DNA from: a virus
Direction: 5' to 3' (one strand)
Length of the DNA: 64,000 nucleotides
Virus record (IMG/VR): IMGVR_UViG_3300020195_000009
Coordinates: 186,001 to 250,000 of that record
Shown here piece after piece: positions 3,897 through 55,187 of this stretch. Both the position numbers and the translations under genes were made by a program. A model generated the notes under the pieces. It saw only the letters and a list, made by a program, of their open reading frames with translations, was not told the DNA's origin and ran no database searches. Each line of letters opens with the position of its first letter. Positions within the stretch are counted from its first letter, which is position 1.

Positions 3897-3957
3897 ATAT
3901 GCCGACAAGTTGTAGAGCTAAGATGGTTTATCTAGGCACCAGCCACGCCCCCCATTG

Positions 3958-4023
3958 TGGACGTACAGGGAGTTGAACCCTGGTCGATCGATTCATAGTC
4001 GATGTAATCCTAGCAAGTCATCC
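3958..4023 (-). pseudogene. tRNA-like sequence with missing D arm
   Basis: Intact anticodon arm ATCGA-CTATGAA-TCGAT and T arm CAGGG-TTCAACT-CCCTG, but only about 13 nt separate a weak acceptor (GGATG/CGTCC) from the anticodon stem. The 5' part (GGATGAC..GGATTACATCG) aligns base for base with the tRNA/Y-RNA chimera at 14222. The loop would read anticodon AUG (His), which is unusual. Probably decayed or recombinant. Confidence 0.5.
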
Positions 4024-4030
4024 GGCACGG

Positions 4031-4679: not shown

Positions 4680-4751
4680 CGTCCCCGGTTGGAATCGAAC
4701 CAACGTAACAGGCTTCGGAAACCTGGGCCTCATCCGCTAGGCTACGGGGAC
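4680..4751 (-). tRNA. tRNA-Arg(CCG)
   Basis: Acceptor GTCCCCG/CGGGGAC; T arm GTTGG-TTCGATT-CCAAC; anticodon loop TTCCGAA in CAGGT/GCCTG; discriminator G. Confidence 0.92.
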
Positions 4752-4774
4752 ATGGGGGCCGTGAGGCCCCTCCC

Positions 4775-4963
4775 TCAGAGAACATCCCAGAGGATGCTTT
4801 TAGGGTGAACGATCTGGAGATCGTCGAACCGATCCTTGACCATGAGGGTCTTGGCTCTGGCTCTCTCTTTGCTCCAGTAGCTCTGTTTCCACCAGTGAAG
4901 CGAGTACCTCCAACGGGGTCGGAAGTTCTTTACGTGGTTCTTTCGTCTGTGGTTCTTGTGCAT
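4775..4963 (-). CDS. small very basic protein (62 aa)
   Basis: ATG 4963 is preceded by a good GGGAGG ribosome site. The product is rich in Lys/Arg/Trp/His (MHKNHRRKNHVKNF, RWRYSLHWWKQSYWSKER). No family recognised; a nucleic-acid-binding role would fit the charge but is not shown. Confidence 0.6.
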   Translation of the reverse strand: MHKNHRRKNHVKNFRPRWRYSLHWWKQSYWSKERARAKTLMVKDRFDDLQIVHPKSILWDVL

Positions 4964-5200: not shown

Positions 5201-5238
5201 ATTGTCTTTGATTTCAGAGGCCTTGCTTTACCTCTTGG

Positions 5239-5298
5239 CGTCCCCAACGCGAATCGAACGCGTGTTCCCACCTTGAGAGGGTAGTGTCCTGGGGGGAC
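5239..5298 (-). tRNA. D-arm-less tRNA-Glu(CUC), 60 nt
   Basis: Anticodon arm CTACC-CTCTCAA-GGTGG, T arm ACGCG-TTCGATT-CGCGT and acceptor GTCCCCC/TGGGGAC are all good, but only 7 nt lie between the acceptor and anticodon stem, so the D arm is absent. A normal-length tRNA-Glu(CUC) is at 15922-15993. Either a deletion derivative or a functional minimal tRNA. Confidence 0.65.
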
Positions 5299-5336
5299 AG
5301 AAATACAAAAGCTCCTATGGGCCATCTTCGATCAAG

Positions 5337-5525
5337 ATGGCCAGAAAATTCAACATCACGTACGTCGAAGCTGACGGCCAGTGGATGGCCAGTATCTACA
5401 CGGTTCCGGGTTGTCACGCAGAGGGAACAACCAAGGATGAGGCACGAGCGAACATCAAAAGGTCGCTCTTGTACTTCTTTGACGACGTGGACGTAGAGTT
5501 TACGGAAGAGTCCTTGAGAGGGTGA
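5337..5525 (+). CDS. HicB-like small protein
   Basis: 62 residues. The pattern YVEADGQWMASIYTVPGCHA followed by GTTKDEARANIKRSL matches the single-domain HicB/UPF0150 fold (strand, 'PGC' turn, then helix beginning with an EA motif). HicB proteins are usually antitoxins of HicA mRNA interferases, but there is no HicA gene next to it and no attached DNA-binding domain, so it may be a stand-alone member. It is convergent with pyrF, stop 3 nt away. Confidence 0.7.
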   Translation: MARKFNITYVEADGQWMASIYTVPGCHAEGTTKDEARANIKRSLLYFFDDVDVEFTEESLRG

Positions 5526-5528
5526 GCT

Positions 5529-6278
5529 TCATCGGGAGATTTCCCTCATCCCTTGCTGAGCAACCTTCTCAATCCGCTGAGCATCTTCGATCTCTTTGAG
5601 GATTGCCTGAGCTGTCACCACAGGGTCGTTGGCATCCCGGATGGGACGGCCGATGACAACGAGGTCGGCGCCGTCGATGACAGCCCCGCCCGGCGTACCC
5701 GTCCGCCGTTGGTCTCCGACCTCTGCGCCGAGGGGTCGTACTCCGGGAACGAGGTAGAAGGCGTCCGGGTGCTTCGTGTGGAGAGCACCGACTTCCTGTG
5801 GAGAACAGACGAAGCCGCGAAGCCCATGAGAGTACGCAAACGAGGCCAGATTCAAGGCTCGAAGACCGGGATCATACGAGGGCTGAGACCAGGCTCGGGT
5901 GACCAGGCTCGGAAGCATGAGAGCTTCGCAATCCTGCTCCGTCATCGACGTGAGAACGGTCACCCCGAGGAGGGTGATACCGAAGGGCTCCGCCGCCTTG
6001 ACGGCCTCTTCCAGCGTTTTGCGCTGCTGGATGTGGAGCGTCATGTACTTCACCCCGAGGTCCCCACCCGCCTTGACGGCTCGGGTCACAGTCTCCGGGA
6101 TGTCGTGGAGCTTCAAGTCGAGGACGACCGGCTTCTTCGTCAAGGGCATCGCCCCGGAGGCGATGAACATCTCCAGCCCGACCTTGAACGCCCCGACGTG
6201 CTCTTCGAGCCGGTCTACAAAGCCTTGAGCTGTTGAGAGCTTGGGGACATCGAGGGCGAAGCAGATCGGATTGCTCAT
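5529..6278 (-). CDS. pyrF: orotidine 5'-phosphate decarboxylase
   Basis: 249 residues with the OMP decarboxylase signature: ALDVPKLSTA at the N-terminus, catalytic VVLDLKLHDIPETVTRAV (D-x-K-x-x-D), a phosphate-binding C-terminal VIGRPIRDANDPV. Converts OMP to UMP in de novo pyrimidine synthesis; cytoplasmic. Length suits the bacterial type. A dihydroorotase gene (53999) and dCTP deaminase (31280) also occur, so the phage appears to boost pyrimidine supply. The gene sits inside the tRNA array on the same strand. Confidence 0.93.
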   Translation of the reverse strand: MSNPICFALDVPKLSTAQGFVDRLEEHVGAFKVGLEMFIASGAMPLTKKPVVLDLKLHDIPETVTRAVKAGGDLGVKYMTLHIQQRKTLEEAVKAAEPFGITLLGVTVLTSMTEQDCEALMLPSLVTRAWSQPSYDPGLRALNLASFAYSHGLRGFVCSPQEVGALHTKHPDAFYLVPGVRPLGAEVGDQRRTGTPGGAVIDGADLVVIGRPIRDANDPVVTAQAILKEIEDAQRIEKVAQQGMREISR

Positions 6279-6662: not shown

Positions 6663-7208
6663 TCATACGACGAAGCCTCCGAGCTGGCCCGCCATCAAAT
6701 CAGTGTAGTTGAACTCTTTCCCGAGGCACTCTTGAATGGTCGCCTCACCAGGGGCGAACCCGTGGTGCTTCCGGTTGTAGACCAGGGCCACTTTCGGGAT
6801 CTTGATCTCCCCTTTGGCGAACTGGTGACCCTTCTCGGTCATCCGGTAGAAGCCAACCCGCTTGCTTCCGTCCTTCCTCTTCTCTTTGGCCTTGGCGTCC
6901 TGCTTGGCTTCCAGGAGGCCCCAGTAGCGGAGCTTGGCGAAGTCCCCCCCTCGGACCGCAGACCCTATGGCGCTCATCTGAGAGAGGAACTTAGGGACGT
7001 GGAGCCAGTCCTTGTTGGTCGAGAAGTGTCGGTGCAGGATGATGAGGGTGTACGCCATCGTGGAGGTGATCTCCCTCGGGTACATCCGAACCTCTTGCCG
7101 ACAACAAGGGCAGATAGCCCCCTTCAACGCATGGTCTTTCAAGACCGCTTGGGCCTTGGCGAGCGTCGTTGTGTTAGGGTCGAACTTAGGATCGAAGGGC
7201 TTGGTCAT
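6663..7208 (-). CDS. hypothetical protein with CPCC motif (181 aa)
   Basis: ATG 7208 (MTKPFDPKFDPN) chosen because the longer frame enters tRNA-Cys. An N-terminal helix precedes a CPCC pair, then a helical region (MAYTLIILHRHF) and a part resembling a winged helix: LRYWGLLEAK, a Lys-rich wing, VGFYRMTEKGHQFAKG. That arrangement suggests a DNA-binding winged helix, but I cannot name a family. Confidence 0.7.
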   Translation of the reverse strand: MTKPFDPKFDPNTTTLAKAQAVLKDHALKGAICPCCRQEVRMYPREITSTMAYTLIILHRHFSTNKDWLHVPKFLSQMSAIGSAVRGGDFAKLRYWGLLEAKQDAKAKEKRKDGSKRVGFYRMTEKGHQFAKGEIKIPKVALVYNRKHHGFAPGEATIQECLGKEFNYTDLMAGQLGGFVV

Positions 7209-7228
7209 CGCCCCTTCGATACACCTGG

Positions 7229-7297
7229 AGAGCCCGGAGGGAATCGAACCCTCGTCCACGATTTTGCAGACCGCGTACCGCTCCAGCGAACGGGCTC
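7229..7297 (-). tRNA. tRNA-Cys(GCA)
   Basis: Anticodon loop CTGCAAA; acceptor GAGCCCG/CGGGCTC; T arm GAGGG-TTCGATT-CCCTC; discriminator U as expected for Cys. Anticodon stem is weak (two G-U). Confidence 0.88.
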
Positions 7298-7476
7298 AAA
7301 ATTGCGATGCTTTCCACCCGTCGCTCTTCCATGGAGAACACGACGGATGGTTCAGAGGTGGCCGAAGCACCAAACCAAGGCCATCGGCTTTTCAGCCGGG
7401 GCTTTAGGTCAGGTTGGGTTGCGTAAACCCCTTGGGCCGCAAGGGCACAAGCCGCCTGACTCCTCCTACGATACAG
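7298..7476. other. gap between tRNA-Cys and tRNA-Gly, no convincing gene
   Basis: A 39-residue plus-strand frame from ATG 7308 exists but has no ribosome site. A CGGCT-GAAA-AGCCG hairpin lies near 7395 on the minus strand. I see no clear function. Confidence 0.4.
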
Positions 7477-7548: not shown

Positions 7549-7577
7549 AATTTGTGGCCACGTGAAGGCCACCCGTG

Positions 7578-8219
7578 TCATTTACAGTAGGTGAACACCA
7601 AGTTGAGATAGACATCCGGATCGTACTTCAACTTGTAGTTACGCAGAATTTCAAGACGCCGCTTCAGGTACTCGCAGCGGTAGGCCACATTTGGCGGCAT
7701 CCACTCGGGTGGGGGGCGTGAACCTTTCGACGTGTTCGACTTCACGCTGGCTGCTTGAAGGTGGTGGGGGTTGGCGAGGTCGTTGGCGTAGGCCTTCTTC
7801 TGCTCAAGCGTCCACTGCCACCCGCCCGCCAGATGAGCCTCTTCAAGAGCCACCACATGATCTATTTGGAGGTCGGCCGGATCCGAGAAGGTCATTCCCG
7901 AATAGGGATCGGTCCACTTTCCGGTCAACACCCGACACGGCTTGAGGGGGTCCACGAACGTCACAGGAACCTCGCTCTCATGAACGAGGACCTCTTGGCG
8001 GGTGTCCTGGCAGTCCTTGTCAGCATCGAACCAACGACCCCACTCGTCCCGGTTGTACGGGGGGATCGCCCCGGCGTCTGTAACCAGGGTGGGCGTCCCG
8101 GCATCGACCGTGATCACACCTACCGTTCGCTTCGGCTCCGGGGTCGGCTTGTTGAAGCACGAACACCCAGAGGCGAGAACCAACACGACGCCAAAACAAC
8201 GCATCAACCTAAAGTACAC
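7578..8219 (-). CDS. secreted/lipoprotein HNH nuclease (DUF1524-like)
   Basis: 213 residues. N-terminal signal MYFRLMRCFGVVLVLASGC with lipobox ASGC. The second half has the DUF1524/GmrSD-C-like His-Me finger: LQIDHVVALEEAHLAGGW, then LANPHHLQAASVKSNTSKG and RCEYLKRRLEILRNY. Exported nucleases of this type degrade DNA outside the cytoplasm. Mature start contains VDAGTP and TDAG, the same style as other lipoproteins here. Possible roles: destroying competing incoming DNA or recycling host DNA; not determinable. Confidence 0.88.
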   Translation of the reverse strand: MYFRLMRCFGVVLVLASGCSCFNKPTPEPKRTVGVITVDAGTPTLVTDAGAIPPYNRDEWGRWFDADKDCQDTRQEVLVHESEVPVTFVDPLKPCRVLTGKWTDPYSGMTFSDPADLQIDHVVALEEAHLAGGWQWTLEQKKAYANDLANPHHLQAASVKSNTSKGSRPPPEWMPPNVAYRCEYLKRRLEILRNYKLKYDPDVYLNLVFTYCK

Positions 8220-8417: not shown

Positions 8418-8424
8418 TGAATGG

Positions 8425-8449
8425 AGCGGACGACGGGAATCGAACCCGA
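8425..8449 (-). pseudogene. tRNA 3' fragment (T arm plus acceptor)
   Basis: T arm TCGGG-TTCGATT-CCCGT followed by CGTCCGC resembles the 3' end of tRNA-Gly(GCC) (16266), but no anticodon or D arm can be found upstream. It lies just before an HNH gene. Confidence 0.5.
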
Positions 8450-8506: not shown

Positions 8507-8980
8507 ATGACCAAGACCTGCATCGGGTGCCGGACAGCAAAGGCGCTGGACGACTTCCACCAGAACTCTGCGAAATCAGACGGACGTAGGGACATCTGCA
8601 AGGCATGCGCAAAGTTGTACCACCGCGAGCACTACCTCAAGAACAGGAGCACCTACATCACGAAGAACTCCGAGAGACGAATACGCTGGAAGCTGGAACT
8701 CCGGAGCCGGGTGGCTGCTTTAAAGGACGTACCGTGTGCGGACTGCGGGAACCGTTTTCCAACATGCGTGATGGACTTCGACCATCTCGATGCCGACGAG
8801 AAGATCGATAGCCTTGCCCGCATGCAGGGTAACGGCCTACCTTGGCGAACCGTTATCGCTGAAATTCAAAAGTGTGAGGTGGTTTGCGCAAACTGTCACC
8901 GCCTCCGAACGTGGCGGCGATGGCAGACAGTTGGAGCGGGTGGGGAGAATCGAACTCCCATTACTAGCTTGGAAGGCTAG
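8507..8980 (+). CDS. HNH endonuclease
   Basis: 157 residues. N-terminal zinc knuckle (CIGCRTAKALDDFH, then CKACAKLYHREHYLKN), a linker, then CADCGNRFPTCVMDFDHLDADEK (core His) and CEVVCANCHRLRTWRR (C-terminal CxxCH). This is a classic free-standing phage HNH homing-type nuclease. The last 15 codons run antisense through tRNA-Gly(UCC), and a tRNA fragment lies just upstream, suggesting mobility linked to tRNA genes. Confidence 0.9.
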   Translation: MTKTCIGCRTAKALDDFHQNSAKSDGRRDICKACAKLYHREHYLKNRSTYITKNSERRIRWKLELRSRVAALKDVPCADCGNRFPTCVMDFDHLDADEKIDSLARMQGNGLPWRTVIAEIQKCEVVCANCHRLRTWRRWQTVGAGGENRTPITSLEG

Positions 8981-9087: not shown

Positions 9088-9103
9088 GAAGTCACGTTCG
9101 CAG

Positions 9104-9171
9104 AGCCGCCTACGAGAGTCGAACTCGTCCACTCCGAGTACAAAACGGAGGCGCCCCCAGGGCAAAGCGGC
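9104..9171 (-). tRNA. tRNA-Thr(UGU), short D arm
   Basis: 68 nt. Acceptor GCCGCTT/AGGCGGC; T arm ACGAG-TTCGACT-CTCGT; anticodon loop TTTGTAC with a mismatch at 31:39. Only 14 nt for the D region. Confidence 0.82.
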
Positions 9172-10082: not shown

Positions 10083-10105
10083 GTCCCTCGTACACCGTTC
10101 GTTGG

Positions 10106-10174
10106 TGGAGCTGTCGGGAGTCGAACCCGCGAAGTTTGCTTGCAAAGCAAACCAGTGACCCGTCACACAACCCC
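10106..10174 (-). tRNA. tRNA-Ala(UGC)
   Basis: Anticodon loop TTTGCAA in TTTGC/GCAAA; acceptor GGGGTTG/CAGCTCC; T loop TTCGACT; 69 nt with a short D arm. Confidence 0.87.
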
Positions 10175-11022: not shown

Positions 11023-11051
11023 GCAAAACGGTAACACGAAGGGTTGCAAGA

Positions 11052-11082
11052 AGCTACCGTCCTGCCATTAGACGACACCCCA
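11052..11082 (-). pseudogene. tRNA-Gln 5' fragment next to HNH gene
   Basis: TGGGGTG plus a D arm identical to that of tRNA-Gln(CUG) next door (TCGTCTAATGGCAGGACG), then the similarity stops and the HNH gene begins within 30 nt. Fits a tRNA cut or duplicated during HNH insertion. Confidence 0.65.
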
Positions 11083-11094
11083 ATGATTACTGAG

Positions 11095-12844: not shown

Positions 12845-12849
12845 AAGTG

Positions 12850-12983
12850 GCGGCAACAAGTGGTCGTAGGGACATTGGGACTAGGGCTCTGCCGACTGAG
12901 CTACCGCCAGGTCTTGCGACCCAACGGGCGGGGCTCGAACCCGCGACCACCAGTTTGATTGTAGTCTCTACTATATTTGCCGC
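12850..12983 (-). ncRNA. Y RNA-like RNA 2 with tRNA-like domain (YrlA type)
   Basis: Exactly between tRNA-His and tRNA-Arg(CCU). Terminal stem GCGGCAA/TTGCCGC; second stem GTAGAGAC/GTCCCTAC; TACA after it and ACTTG before the last strand. Inside, read 5' to 3': ACTGG, T arm GCGGG-TTCGAGC-CCCGC, then CCGTTGGGTC-GCAA-GACCTGGCGG (an acceptor arm closed by a GNRA tetraloop), TA, D arm GCTC-AGTCGGCA-GAGC, and CTAGT, which pairs with ACTGG. This is a tRNA fold with no free end, joined to the Y stem through its anticodon stem, as described for YrlA. Confidence 0.85.
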
Positions 12984-12987
12984 TTAG

Positions 12988-13553: not shown

Positions 13554-13558
13554 AAATT

Positions 13559-13714
13559 CGTCGTGACAAGTAGTGCGAAGACGGACAGCCTTTCGGCCCC
13601 GGTGCGTATACTCTTCCGCCACTCAGCCATATCAGTAGGCTGAGGAGGGGCGTTACTCCCCCATGTCCTTACGGACGCCGGTTTTCAATGTAGTCCTCAC
13701 GGTCATTCACGACG
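13559..13714 (-). ncRNA. Y RNA-like RNA 3 with class-II-like tRNA domain
   Basis: Between tRNA-Leu(CAG) and tRNA-Pro. Terminal stem CGTCGTGA/TCACGACG; loop ATGACC opposite ACTACTTG; second stem GTGAGGAC/GTCTTCGC; then TACATT. The inner domain has a variable-arm-like hairpin GTCC-GTAA-GGAC, a T-like arm GGGGG-AGTAACG-CCCCT, an acceptor-like CTCAGCC/GGCTGAG closed by TACTGATAT, a D-like GCG/CGC arm and CCGG/CCGG as anticodon-like stem. 156 nt, the longest copy. Confidence 0.82.
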
Positions 13715-13715
13715 G

Positions 13716-13800
13716 TGCTCAGAGGGGGAATCGAACCCCCACACCTTTTACGGCGTCGGATCCTGAATCCGATGCGTCTGCCTAGTTCCGCCACCTGAGC
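13716..13800 (-). tRNA. tRNA-Leu(CAG)
   Basis: Class II; loop TTCAGGA in TCGGA/TCCGA; acceptor GCTCAGG/TCTGAGC; T arm GGGGG-TTCGATT-CCCCC. Confidence 0.92.
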
Positions 13801-13805
13801 AAGAA

Positions 13806-13908
13806 GAGACGACAAGTGGCCGCGAAGACGTTTTTGCCACCAGACCTTGCGGTCCAGCTCGGGGTCCGAGCCCCAGGCTACCTTGTAGTCCTCACATTCA
13901 TTCGTCTC
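13806..13908 (-). ncRNA. Y RNA-like RNA 4 with GNRA-capped domain
   Basis: Between tRNA-Leu(GAG) and tRNA-Leu(CAG). Terminal stem GAGACGA/TCGTCTC; ATGAAT opposite GGCCACTTG; second stem GTGAGGAC/GTCTTCGC, identical pairing to RNA 3; TACA follows. The inner domain has a T-loop-like CTCGGAC and an acceptor-like GCTGGACC-GCAA-GGTCTGGT hairpin. 103 nt; the D-like arm is reduced. Confidence 0.8.
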
Positions 13909-13910
13909 AG

Positions 13911-14097: not shown

Positions 14098-14128
14098 ATG
14101 TTTCAAAATTCAACAAGATCGACAAGGA

Positions 14129-14209
14129 AACGAGAGTCAAGGGCACCAGCCCATGATACCATCGAAGCCGATGGTGCCCGTGACATCCGTTGTCCCAAAC
14201 CCTCTCGTT
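14129..14209 (-). ncRNA. structured RNA, possibly a diverged Y RNA
   Basis: Terminal stem AACGAGAG/CTCTCGTT with CTTGA just before the last strand, inner stem GGGCACC/GGTGCCC and hairpins GACA-ACGGA-TGTC and CCATCG-GCTT-CGATGG. The CTTG placement recalls the Y RNAs, but AATG, GGAC and TACA are not in place. Confidence 0.4.
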
Positions 14210-14221
14210 TGAAAGGGCTTG

Positions 14222-14290
14222 GTGACGGCGACGGGGAATCGAACCCCGCGACCTCCTCGTTATGAGCGATGTAGTCCTCACGGTCATTCG
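14222..14290 (-). tRNA. tRNA-Met(CAU)-like chimera with Y RNA 5' half
   Basis: 3' part is tRNA-like: anticodon loop CTCATAA in CATCG/CGAGG, T arm CGGGG-TTCGATT-CCCCG, 3' acceptor TCGCCGT pairing 6/7 with ACGACGA. But the 5' part from AATG through GGACTACAT is the same 21 nt as in Y RNA 3 (13559-13714), in place of a normal D arm. No matching CTTG strand is found. Probably a recombinant between a Y RNA and tRNA-Met; function doubtful. Confidence 0.5.
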
Positions 14291-14296
14291 TCGTGG

Positions 14297-14369
14297 TGGG
14301 TCCCCTCGGGATCGAACCGAGTTGTCTGGCTCTTCAGACCAGCGCATTGACCACAATTGCTTGAGACCC
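14297..14369 (-). tRNA. tRNA-Phe(GAA)
   Basis: Acceptor GGGTCTC/GGGACCC; anticodon loop CTGAAGA in CTGGT/GCCAG; T arm CTCGG-TTCGATC-CCGAG. Confidence 0.92.
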
Positions 14370-14384
14370 AGTTGAAAATGTTAG

Positions 14385-14453
14385 CAGGCCGGGAGGGAAT
14401 CGAACCCGTCTTTTGGAGATTTGGAGGCTCCATCGCGTCCTACGCTCCGACCT
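14385..14453 (-). tRNA. tRNA-Trp(CCA)
   Basis: Anticodon loop CTCCAAA in GGAGC/TCTCC; acceptor AGGTCGG/CCGGCCT; discriminator G. T stem has two mismatches. Confidence 0.85.
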
Positions 14454-15099: not shown

Positions 15100-15252
15100 T
15101 GCGACGACAAGGTGACGGAGGAGACGGCCAGCATAGGAGCCCTTCTAAGTGCCGGTCTTGAAGGCTTGCGTCTTCAAGGCGGGATCTGCCCCCGCAAAGC
15201 TCCGGGCCTGGCTTGCCCTTGGTCGATGTAGTCCCTTCCTTCATTCGTCGCA
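15100..15252 (-). ncRNA. Y RNA-like RNA 6 with tRNA-like domain
   Basis: Exactly between tRNA-Phe (15254) and tRNA-Ile (15095). Terminal stem TGCGACGA/TCGTCGCA; ATGAA opposite GTCACCTTG; second stem GGAAGGGAC/GTCTCCTCC (8/9 pairs); TACA follows. Inner domain: anticodon-like GCCAG/CTGGC, T arm GCGGG-GGCAGAT-CCCGC, acceptor CTTGAAG/CTTCAAG closed by C-GCAA-G. The T loop matches the unusual loop style of the phage tmRNA (GGCAGTA). Confidence 0.82.
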
Positions 15253-15253
15253 G

Positions 15254-15318
15254 TGCTTGAGGTTGGAATCGAACCAACTACGCACGGTGCTTCAAACCGT
15301 CGCTCTAGCTACTCAAGC
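15254..15318 (-). tRNA. tRNA-Phe(GAA), second copy, deleted D loop (65 nt)
   Basis: Acceptor GCTTGAG/CTCAAGC, loop TTGAAGC in ACGGT/ACCGT and T arm GTTGG-TTCGATT-CCAAC are perfect. The D region is only TAGCTAGAGCG, as if about 8 nt of a normal TAGCTC..AGAGC arm were deleted. Confidence 0.7.
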
Positions 15319-15461
15319 ATGGTGGGTCGTGTTCGCCTCTTGGTGCGTCGGCTTACCGATCGTCCAAGAGGCTCGGGCCTTCCCTTTGCCCGATGCGAGA
15401 GCTACCCCGGCTGCGTTGCCTTTACCGCCCGCAACTTCCGGTTCTACTATTCGCGAGTTTG
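15319..15461. other. gap with strong hairpin, no convincing gene
   Basis: On the minus strand GCCTCTTGG (15364-15372) pairs with CCAAGAGGC (15335-15343) around an inner TCGG-TAAG-CCGA hairpin. A plus-strand frame from ATG 15319 encodes 53 aa with FARCESYPGC, reminiscent of half a topoisomerase zinc finger, but has no ribosome site. Confidence 0.4.
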
Positions 15462-15533
15462 TGACCCCAGCCGGATTTGAACCGAGCGTGAACCCCTTGA
15501 AAGGGGGCTATCCTGCCTTTAGATGATGGGGCC
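15462..15533 (-). tRNA. tRNA-Glu(UUC)
   Basis: Loop CTTTCAA in GCCCC/GGGGT; acceptor GGCCCCA/TGGGGTC; T loop TTCAAAT. Overlaps the end of the HNH frame. Confidence 0.9.
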
Positions 15534-15912: not shown

Positions 15913-15921
15913 GTTCCTTTG

Positions 15922-15993
15922 TGACCCTGGCGGGAGTTGAACCCAGCGTCCCCAGATTGAGAATCTGGTTGCCTACCGTTAGCAGACAGGGCC
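15922..15993 (-). tRNA. tRNA-Glu(CUC)
   Basis: Loop TTCTCAA in CCAGA/TCTGG; acceptor GGCCCTG/CAGGGTC; T loop TTCAACT. Full-length partner of the D-arm-less Glu(CUC) at 5239. Confidence 0.9.
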
Positions 15994-53654: not shown

Positions 53655-53885
53655 GATACGCTCGAACCTGGTCTTGTAGGGCTCGGGTGGGGGTGGCACA
53701 AAGTAGACGTAACCTCGACGGGGGCCGCCATTCGGCTCTCGTGCGACAGCTCCAGTGTTGTTGAAGGCGCACAAGGTCGAAGCGACCGATGAGGTCTTGG
53801 CTTGAAGAGCGTGTGATATTTCCGTAGCGCTCTTGCCAGGGTTCCCCCGGACGTAGTTCAAGATCCTGTCTTTGAGCATCTCCAT
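53436..53885 (-). CDS. winged-helix-like protein
   Basis: ATG 53885 (MEMLKDRILNYVRGNPGKSA); TEISHALQAKTSSVASTLCA and TGAVAREPNGGPRRGYVYF form helix-turn-helix plus wing. Residues after ~75 overlap the end of the opposite glycohydrolase gene, an unusual 219-nt convergent overlap, so the true C-terminus may be shorter. tRNA(CUA) starts 3 nt upstream. Confidence 0.6.
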   Translation of the reverse strand: MEMLKDRILNYVRGNPGKSATEISHALQAKTSSVASTLCAFNNTGAVAREPNGGPRRGYVYFVPPPPEPYKTRFERILAEPDGAASRAASDLQLKPVEVVEVLQTLPPSDGDSIQPVVGSRKRPRNGGRRVSVSASPNRGLNRLLKGLG

Positions 53886-53887
53886 GG

Positions 53888-53962
53888 TGGTCCCGACGGG
53901 ATTTGAACCCGCACCCCGCGAATTTAGAATTCGCTGCTTCAAACCATTTGAGCTTCAGGACC
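53888..53962 (-). tRNA. amber-suppressor-type tRNA(CUA) 1
   Basis: Acceptor GGTCCTG/CGGGACC; anticodon arm GCGAA-TTCTAAA-TTCGC, anticodon CTA complementary to UAG; T arm GCGGG-TTCAAAT-CCCGT; discriminator A. Its own amino acid cannot be told from sequence. It stands 36 kb from the main array. Confidence 0.85.
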
Positions 53963-55075: not shown

Positions 55076-55108
55076 ACAGATTCTCCACAGCCTGTGGATA
55101 GAACGGGG

Positions 55109-55181
55109 CGCTCCCGGCAGGACTTGAACCTGCGACGTACGGATTTAGAAACCGATGTTCTGCCGACTGAACTACGGGAGC
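55109..55181 (-). tRNA. amber-suppressor-type tRNA(CUA) 2
   Basis: Perfect acceptor GCTCCCG/CGGGAGC, D arm TA-GTTC..GAAC, T arm GCAGG-TTCAAGT-CCTGC, loop TTCTAAA with anticodon CTA. The anticodon stem TCGGT/TCCGT keeps only three pairs. Discriminator G. Confidence 0.8.
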
Positions 55182-55187
55182 ACACAT

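Follow-up and report, generated by a model that had tools for sequence, protein, structure and literature searches.

The 60-nt tRNA-Glu(CUC) gene without a D arm at positions 5239-5298 (minus strand) is most probably an ordinary phage tRNA-Glu(CUC) gene that has recently been shortened by a deletion and is dispensable. This gene lies in a window of 64,000 nt, taken from a 286,005-base virus record (bases 186001-250000). A minus-strand array composed of a tmRNA, some 48 tRNA genes, and small ORFs occupies the first 18 kb of the window. The identity of the short gene as a tRNA derivative is indicated by sequence, structure, a sub-threshold Rfam match, and a full-length orthologue. The array also encodes a complete tRNA-Glu(UUC) (15461-15533, minus strand; ARAGORN and Rfam) and a redundant, complete tRNA-Glu(CUC) (15921-15993, minus strand; ARAGORN, 48.0 bits with Rfam), the normal copy that the original prediction had placed at 15922.

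Structure of the short tRNA-Glu(CUC) gene

Read on the minus strand from 5298 to 5239, the gene consists of an acceptor 5' strand (GTCCCCC) and a 7-nt connector (CAGGACA), together spanning 5285-5298 as delimited by alignment with the orthologue, followed by an anticodon arm (CTACC, CTCTCAA, and GGTGG), a 4-nt variable loop (GAAC), a T arm (ACGCG, TTCGATT, and CGCGT), and the acceptor 3' strand (TGGGGAC) with a final G. An encoded CCA end follows at 5236-5238 (minus strand), as it does in the orthologue. The original prediction of a 60-nt tRNA-Glu(CUC) in which 7 nt replace the D arm was therefore confirmed on the minus strand. Its description of the other arms as perfect holds for the anticodon and T stems (five of five pairs each), and U33, the CUC anticodon, and A37 are canonical for tRNA-Glu, but the acceptor falls short of the canonical 7 bp, with six pairs and a C·U mismatch at the seventh. 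In place of a canonical D arm there is only the connector, which still contains GGAC (5286-5289), formerly the 3' strand of the D stem.

As assessed by energy minimization, the RNA has a 6-bp acceptor, eight unpaired nt, an anticodon arm, and a T arm (-21.7 kcal/mol). With a z score of only -1.22 relative to shuffled sequences, this folding energy is by itself no proof. ARAGORN makes no call at 5239-5298, and the Rfam tRNA model RF00005 scores 24.8 bits, below its 29-bit cut-off (E value of 9e-4 for the whole record). In a structural scan of thirty random 64-kb sequences, covering both strands, no three-armed tRNA with a connector of 4-11 nt turned up. The empty random scan and the syntenic full-length orthologue show that 5239-5298 is not a chance fold but a true tRNA derivative. 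Two other foldings were rejected: a longer form with an upstream start (5239-5312, with a 21-nt connector), whose acceptor helix would be mostly G·U, and misfolding via TGTCC/GGACA, which has a computed pair probability of ∼0.01 versus 0.85-0.87 for the acceptor.

A full-length orthologue at the same locus in a relative

A scan that used the adjacent pyrF identified one relative with this array, IMGVR_UViG_3300022562_000333 (hereafter G001), which is fairly distant. It has the same gene order: Arg(UCU), pyrF, a UPF0150-like ORF, Glu(CUC), Arg(GCG), Arg(ACG), Arg(CCG), and Arg(UCG). In the window, the synteny anchor pyrF, encoding OMP decarboxylase (5529-6278, minus strand), is 66% identical to its G001 counterpart. 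The small ORF between pyrF and the short tRNA (5337-5525, plus strand), which matches the UPF0150 family weakly and below the Pfam cut-off, is found at the same place and on the same strand in G001 with 74% identity. At the position of the short gene, G001 has a full-length tRNA-Glu(CUC) with an encoded CCA (L011:7003-7079). At position 33, where U is near-universal, this G001 tRNA has a C.

Alignment of the two genes (GTCCCC-ATCGTCTAGCTGG-CCAAGGACACGACC... in G001 versus GTCCCC-CCAGGACACTACC... in the window) shows that the short gene equals the G001 gene minus 14 nt, i.e. the 5' half of the D arm together with acceptor position 7. The junction lies inside the C run of 5285-5298. Because the missing 14 nt are bordered by C runs, slippage there is the probable cause of the loss. 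In addition, 60 phage records, mostly annotated as tRNA-Glu, match the short gene from gene position 6 or later, most of them from position 9. These matches start next to the junction, consistent with a D arm being present there in their genes.

Other IMG/VR and genome scans yielded no second relative with the array. Three candidates (L012, L026, and L032) were discarded because the stretches taken contain no tRNAs, and a fourth (L033) was a chance match. An exact-pattern scan of IMG/VR for the short form returned nine matches, none of which is a tRNA according to ARAGORN. The original prediction had named a full-length form in relatives as the sign of a one-off deletion, and this form is what G001, a single and fairly distant relative, carries; conservation of the short form, which it had proposed looking for in related phages, was not seen in G001, the only relative compared.

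Outside the deletion, 50 of the 60 bases match G001 (83%), near the top of the range for 30 orthologous tRNA pairs (62-89%). All 36 scorable stem cells of the two Glu genes are paired, although the statistics are weak with two sequences. Four stem pairs have changed on both sides, and the only uncompensated stem change is at acceptor pair 7, at the junction. CCA, U33, and the T loop are kept. There is thus no decay outside the junction, which is compatible both with a young age and with retained use. The flanking proteins are only 66-77% identical between the two phages, so neutral sites should be near saturation. On the assumption of about one neutral substitution per site, we estimate that a gene left unconstrained for more than roughly 5% of the lineage time should show damage. 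The good state of the remaining 60 nt therefore implies that either the deletion is very recent or the short RNA is still in use. A very recent deletion would suit the pseudogenes seen in compact phage genomes, which would tend to be young.

Other damaged or shortened tRNAs in the array

The array contains a second D-loop deletion. A Phe(GAA)-like tRNA of 65 nt (15254-15318, minus strand), missed by ARAGORN, has lost 8 nt from its D loop. The gene at the corresponding position in G001 is full length, and a complete tRNA-Phe(GAA) called by ARAGORN (14294-14369, minus strand) makes the shortened one redundant. Further minus-strand remnants are a degenerate Ile(UAU)-like sequence whose acceptor is broken (about 2383-2460) and for which G001 has an intact gene, and tRNA debris in the form of a 26-nt Gly(GCC)-like 3' fragment (about 8423-8448) and a 5' partial copy of Gln(CUG) adjoining the intact gene (about 11030-11085). 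The Ile-like, Gly, and Gln remnants show general tRNA turnover in the array.

Several other minus-strand tRNAs have unusually short D loops: Trp(CCA) (14385-14453, missed by ARAGORN), Thr(UGU) (9103-9171), Ala(UGC) (10103-10174) and Cys(GCA) (7226-7297), both of which are short in the two phages, and Val(UAC) of G001 (L021:8976-9046). The shortened D arms of these five tRNAs are probably functional. A mycobacteriophage, Salmonella phage Spc35, and Sinorhizobium phage Phosso have short D arms as well, with connectors 14-15 nt long, but no credible tRNA with a connector below 14 nt was seen in these three phages, S-CRM01, or G001. In Spc35, a short-D-arm Trp(CCA)-like sequence (L030:15065-15132) is unannotated in the record, as is a short-D-arm tRNA-like sequence with a CAU anticodon in Phosso (L028:15900-15966).

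Elsewhere in the window, there are two well-formed tRNAs with a CUA anticodon (53885-53962 and 55106-55182, minus strand), i.e. amber suppressors, which ARAGORN labels tRNA-Pyl. Phage XacN1 has two CUA tRNAs as well (PMC5852040). UAG recoding was considered as the reason for these tRNAs and set aside, as the window contains no convincing read-through gene.

Y RNA-like genes among the tRNAs

Both phages have Y RNA-like genes, with approximate boundaries, clustered among their tRNAs. Those of the window are on the minus strand at about 3897-4028, 12847-12985, 13555-13714, 13800-13910, 14110-14296, and 15105-15252; others are at about 9090-9250 of L021 and at about 4710-4842, 7150-7305, 7552-7770, 8552-8675, and 8954-9116 of L022. 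Their signature is a 5' CGAATGA...GGACTACATC with a closing 3' strand CTTGTCGnC, and most contain a tRNA-like T arm. Matches to the Rfam YrlA model reach 53.5 bits, against a cut-off of 69, and the 286-kb record yielded no Ro60 (TROVE) gene.

Two weak matches to the tRNA model that lack D arms (3958-4023 and 14223-14285) were rejected as sister D-armless tRNAs, since they are the tRNA-like parts of Y RNAs: they have a TACATC motif in common with the other elements, and syntenic counterparts in G001. Neither the 5' motif (CGAATG...GGACTACATC) nor CTTGTCGnC is present in 5239-5298 and its flanks, so the short gene is not a bacterial Y RNA. Bacterial Y RNAs (YrlA/YrlB) are T-arm-containing, tRNA-like RNAs of the same array; the short gene differs from them in having no CGAATG...GGACTACATC...CTTGTCG signature and in being orthologous to a true tRNA.

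Discussion

The original prediction had suggested that the short gene may be a relaxed copy. This agrees with the full CUC copy, the full-length form at the same locus in G001, and the other broken tRNAs of the array. The damaging 14-nt deletion relative to the syntenic, intact G001 gene and the intact redundant copy at 15921-15993 are those of a pseudogene. We propose that slippage or recombination, acting on the C run of the acceptor and a C run of the D loop, caused the deletion, and that the loss would be tolerated because the array retains complete Glu(CUC) (15921) and Glu(UUC) (15461) genes. If the gene is transcribed, its RNA ends would probably be processed, but charging by the host GluRS would be poor, and the RNA would be turned over, adding little to decoding. 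The event would have left too little time for decay of the remaining arms. What speaks against this reading is that these 60 nt are undecayed, and that there is only one array-bearing relative, which itself has an unusual C33.

The loss bears directly on charging. In E. coli, the major identity determinants of tRNA-Glu are U11-A24, U13-G22:A46, and the absence of nt 47 (PMC9976931). Positions 10-13 are deleted in the short gene, which removes U11 and U13, i.e. half of U11-A24 and of U13-G22:A46, and the deletion also takes acceptor pair 7. As no class-Ic (Glu/Gln) synthetase is recognisable in the 286-kb record, charging would depend on the host GluRS. A working D-armless tRNA that is charged and decodes GAG, its deletion having been tolerated without loss of function or even favoured (for example by evading recognition, as by a host tRNA nuclease), is unlikely given the lost identity elements and acceptor pair 7, the redundant Glu(CUC) copy, and the full-length form in G001. 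Yet GAG is the commoner Glu codon in long ORFs (40 versus 20 per thousand codons for GAA), the stems, loops, and CCA are intact with compensatory changes, the second D-arm-deleted gene of the array also retains its other stems, and several probably functional tRNAs of this phage group have shortened D arms. Known bacterial tRNAs are described as cloverleaves, armless forms being restricted to mitochondria, with no native D-armless example reported from elsewhere (PMC11551756). The same study shows that Mini HisT, an artificial D-armless tRNA, is accepted by E. coli HisRS, EF-Tu, and the ribosome, but supported growth only with a mutation in the RNase gene pnp (PMC11551756). Mini HisT is likewise a bacterial-type D-armless tRNA, but it is engineered and serves HisRS, whereas the short gene is natural and glutamate identity in E. 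coli depends on the D helix. That the short gene is a natural, functional D-armless tRNA of phage or bacterial type, the end point of a D-arm shortening also seen in the Ala, Cys, Val, Thr, Trp, and Phe tRNAs, appears rather improbable.

With its acceptor and T arms intact, the RNA could still be bound by tRNA enzymes, and tRNA mimics, the Y RNAs, occur in the same array, which would fit a short RNA kept for a non-decoding job as a decoy for a tRNA-targeting nuclease, a primer, or a regulator. Positive evidence for the priming or decoy role raised in the original prediction was not found: G001 does not share the short form, no linked partner gene was recognised, and the RNA has no motif in common with the Y RNAs. 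Such a job is very unlikely. An assembly or sequencing artefact, conceivable for a single metagenomic contig with a junction within a C run, is highly improbable in view of a clean 14-nt loss unlike a homopolymer error, intact neighbouring ORFs such as pyrF, and a second similar deletion 10 kb away.

Compared with known systems, the short gene has the anticodon arm, T arm, acceptor, and CCA of ordinary phage tRNA-Glu, represented by G001 at the same locus and by Tequintavirus-type genes, and differs by the 14-nt deletion in the D arm and acceptor described above. It resembles the tRNA pseudogenes known in T4-like phages (PMC1524935), RaK2 (PMC3622015), and XacN1 (PMC5852040) in being a degenerate extra copy within a phage tRNA set, but its damage is confined to one precise deletion and the rest is well kept. 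The D-armless tRNAs of animal mitochondria are likewise three-armed, with a short connector replacing the D arm; however, they are conserved and functional, whereas the short gene is a recent derivative of a cloverleaf that is not conserved in G001. Were it functional, a natural D-armless phage tRNA would break the cloverleaf rule and provide a natural substrate for defining the minimal tRNA fold that bacteria need. In the more likely case of a mere broken spare, it illustrates the turnover of jumbo-phage tRNA arrays, in which small deletions trim old copies and extra ones arrive.
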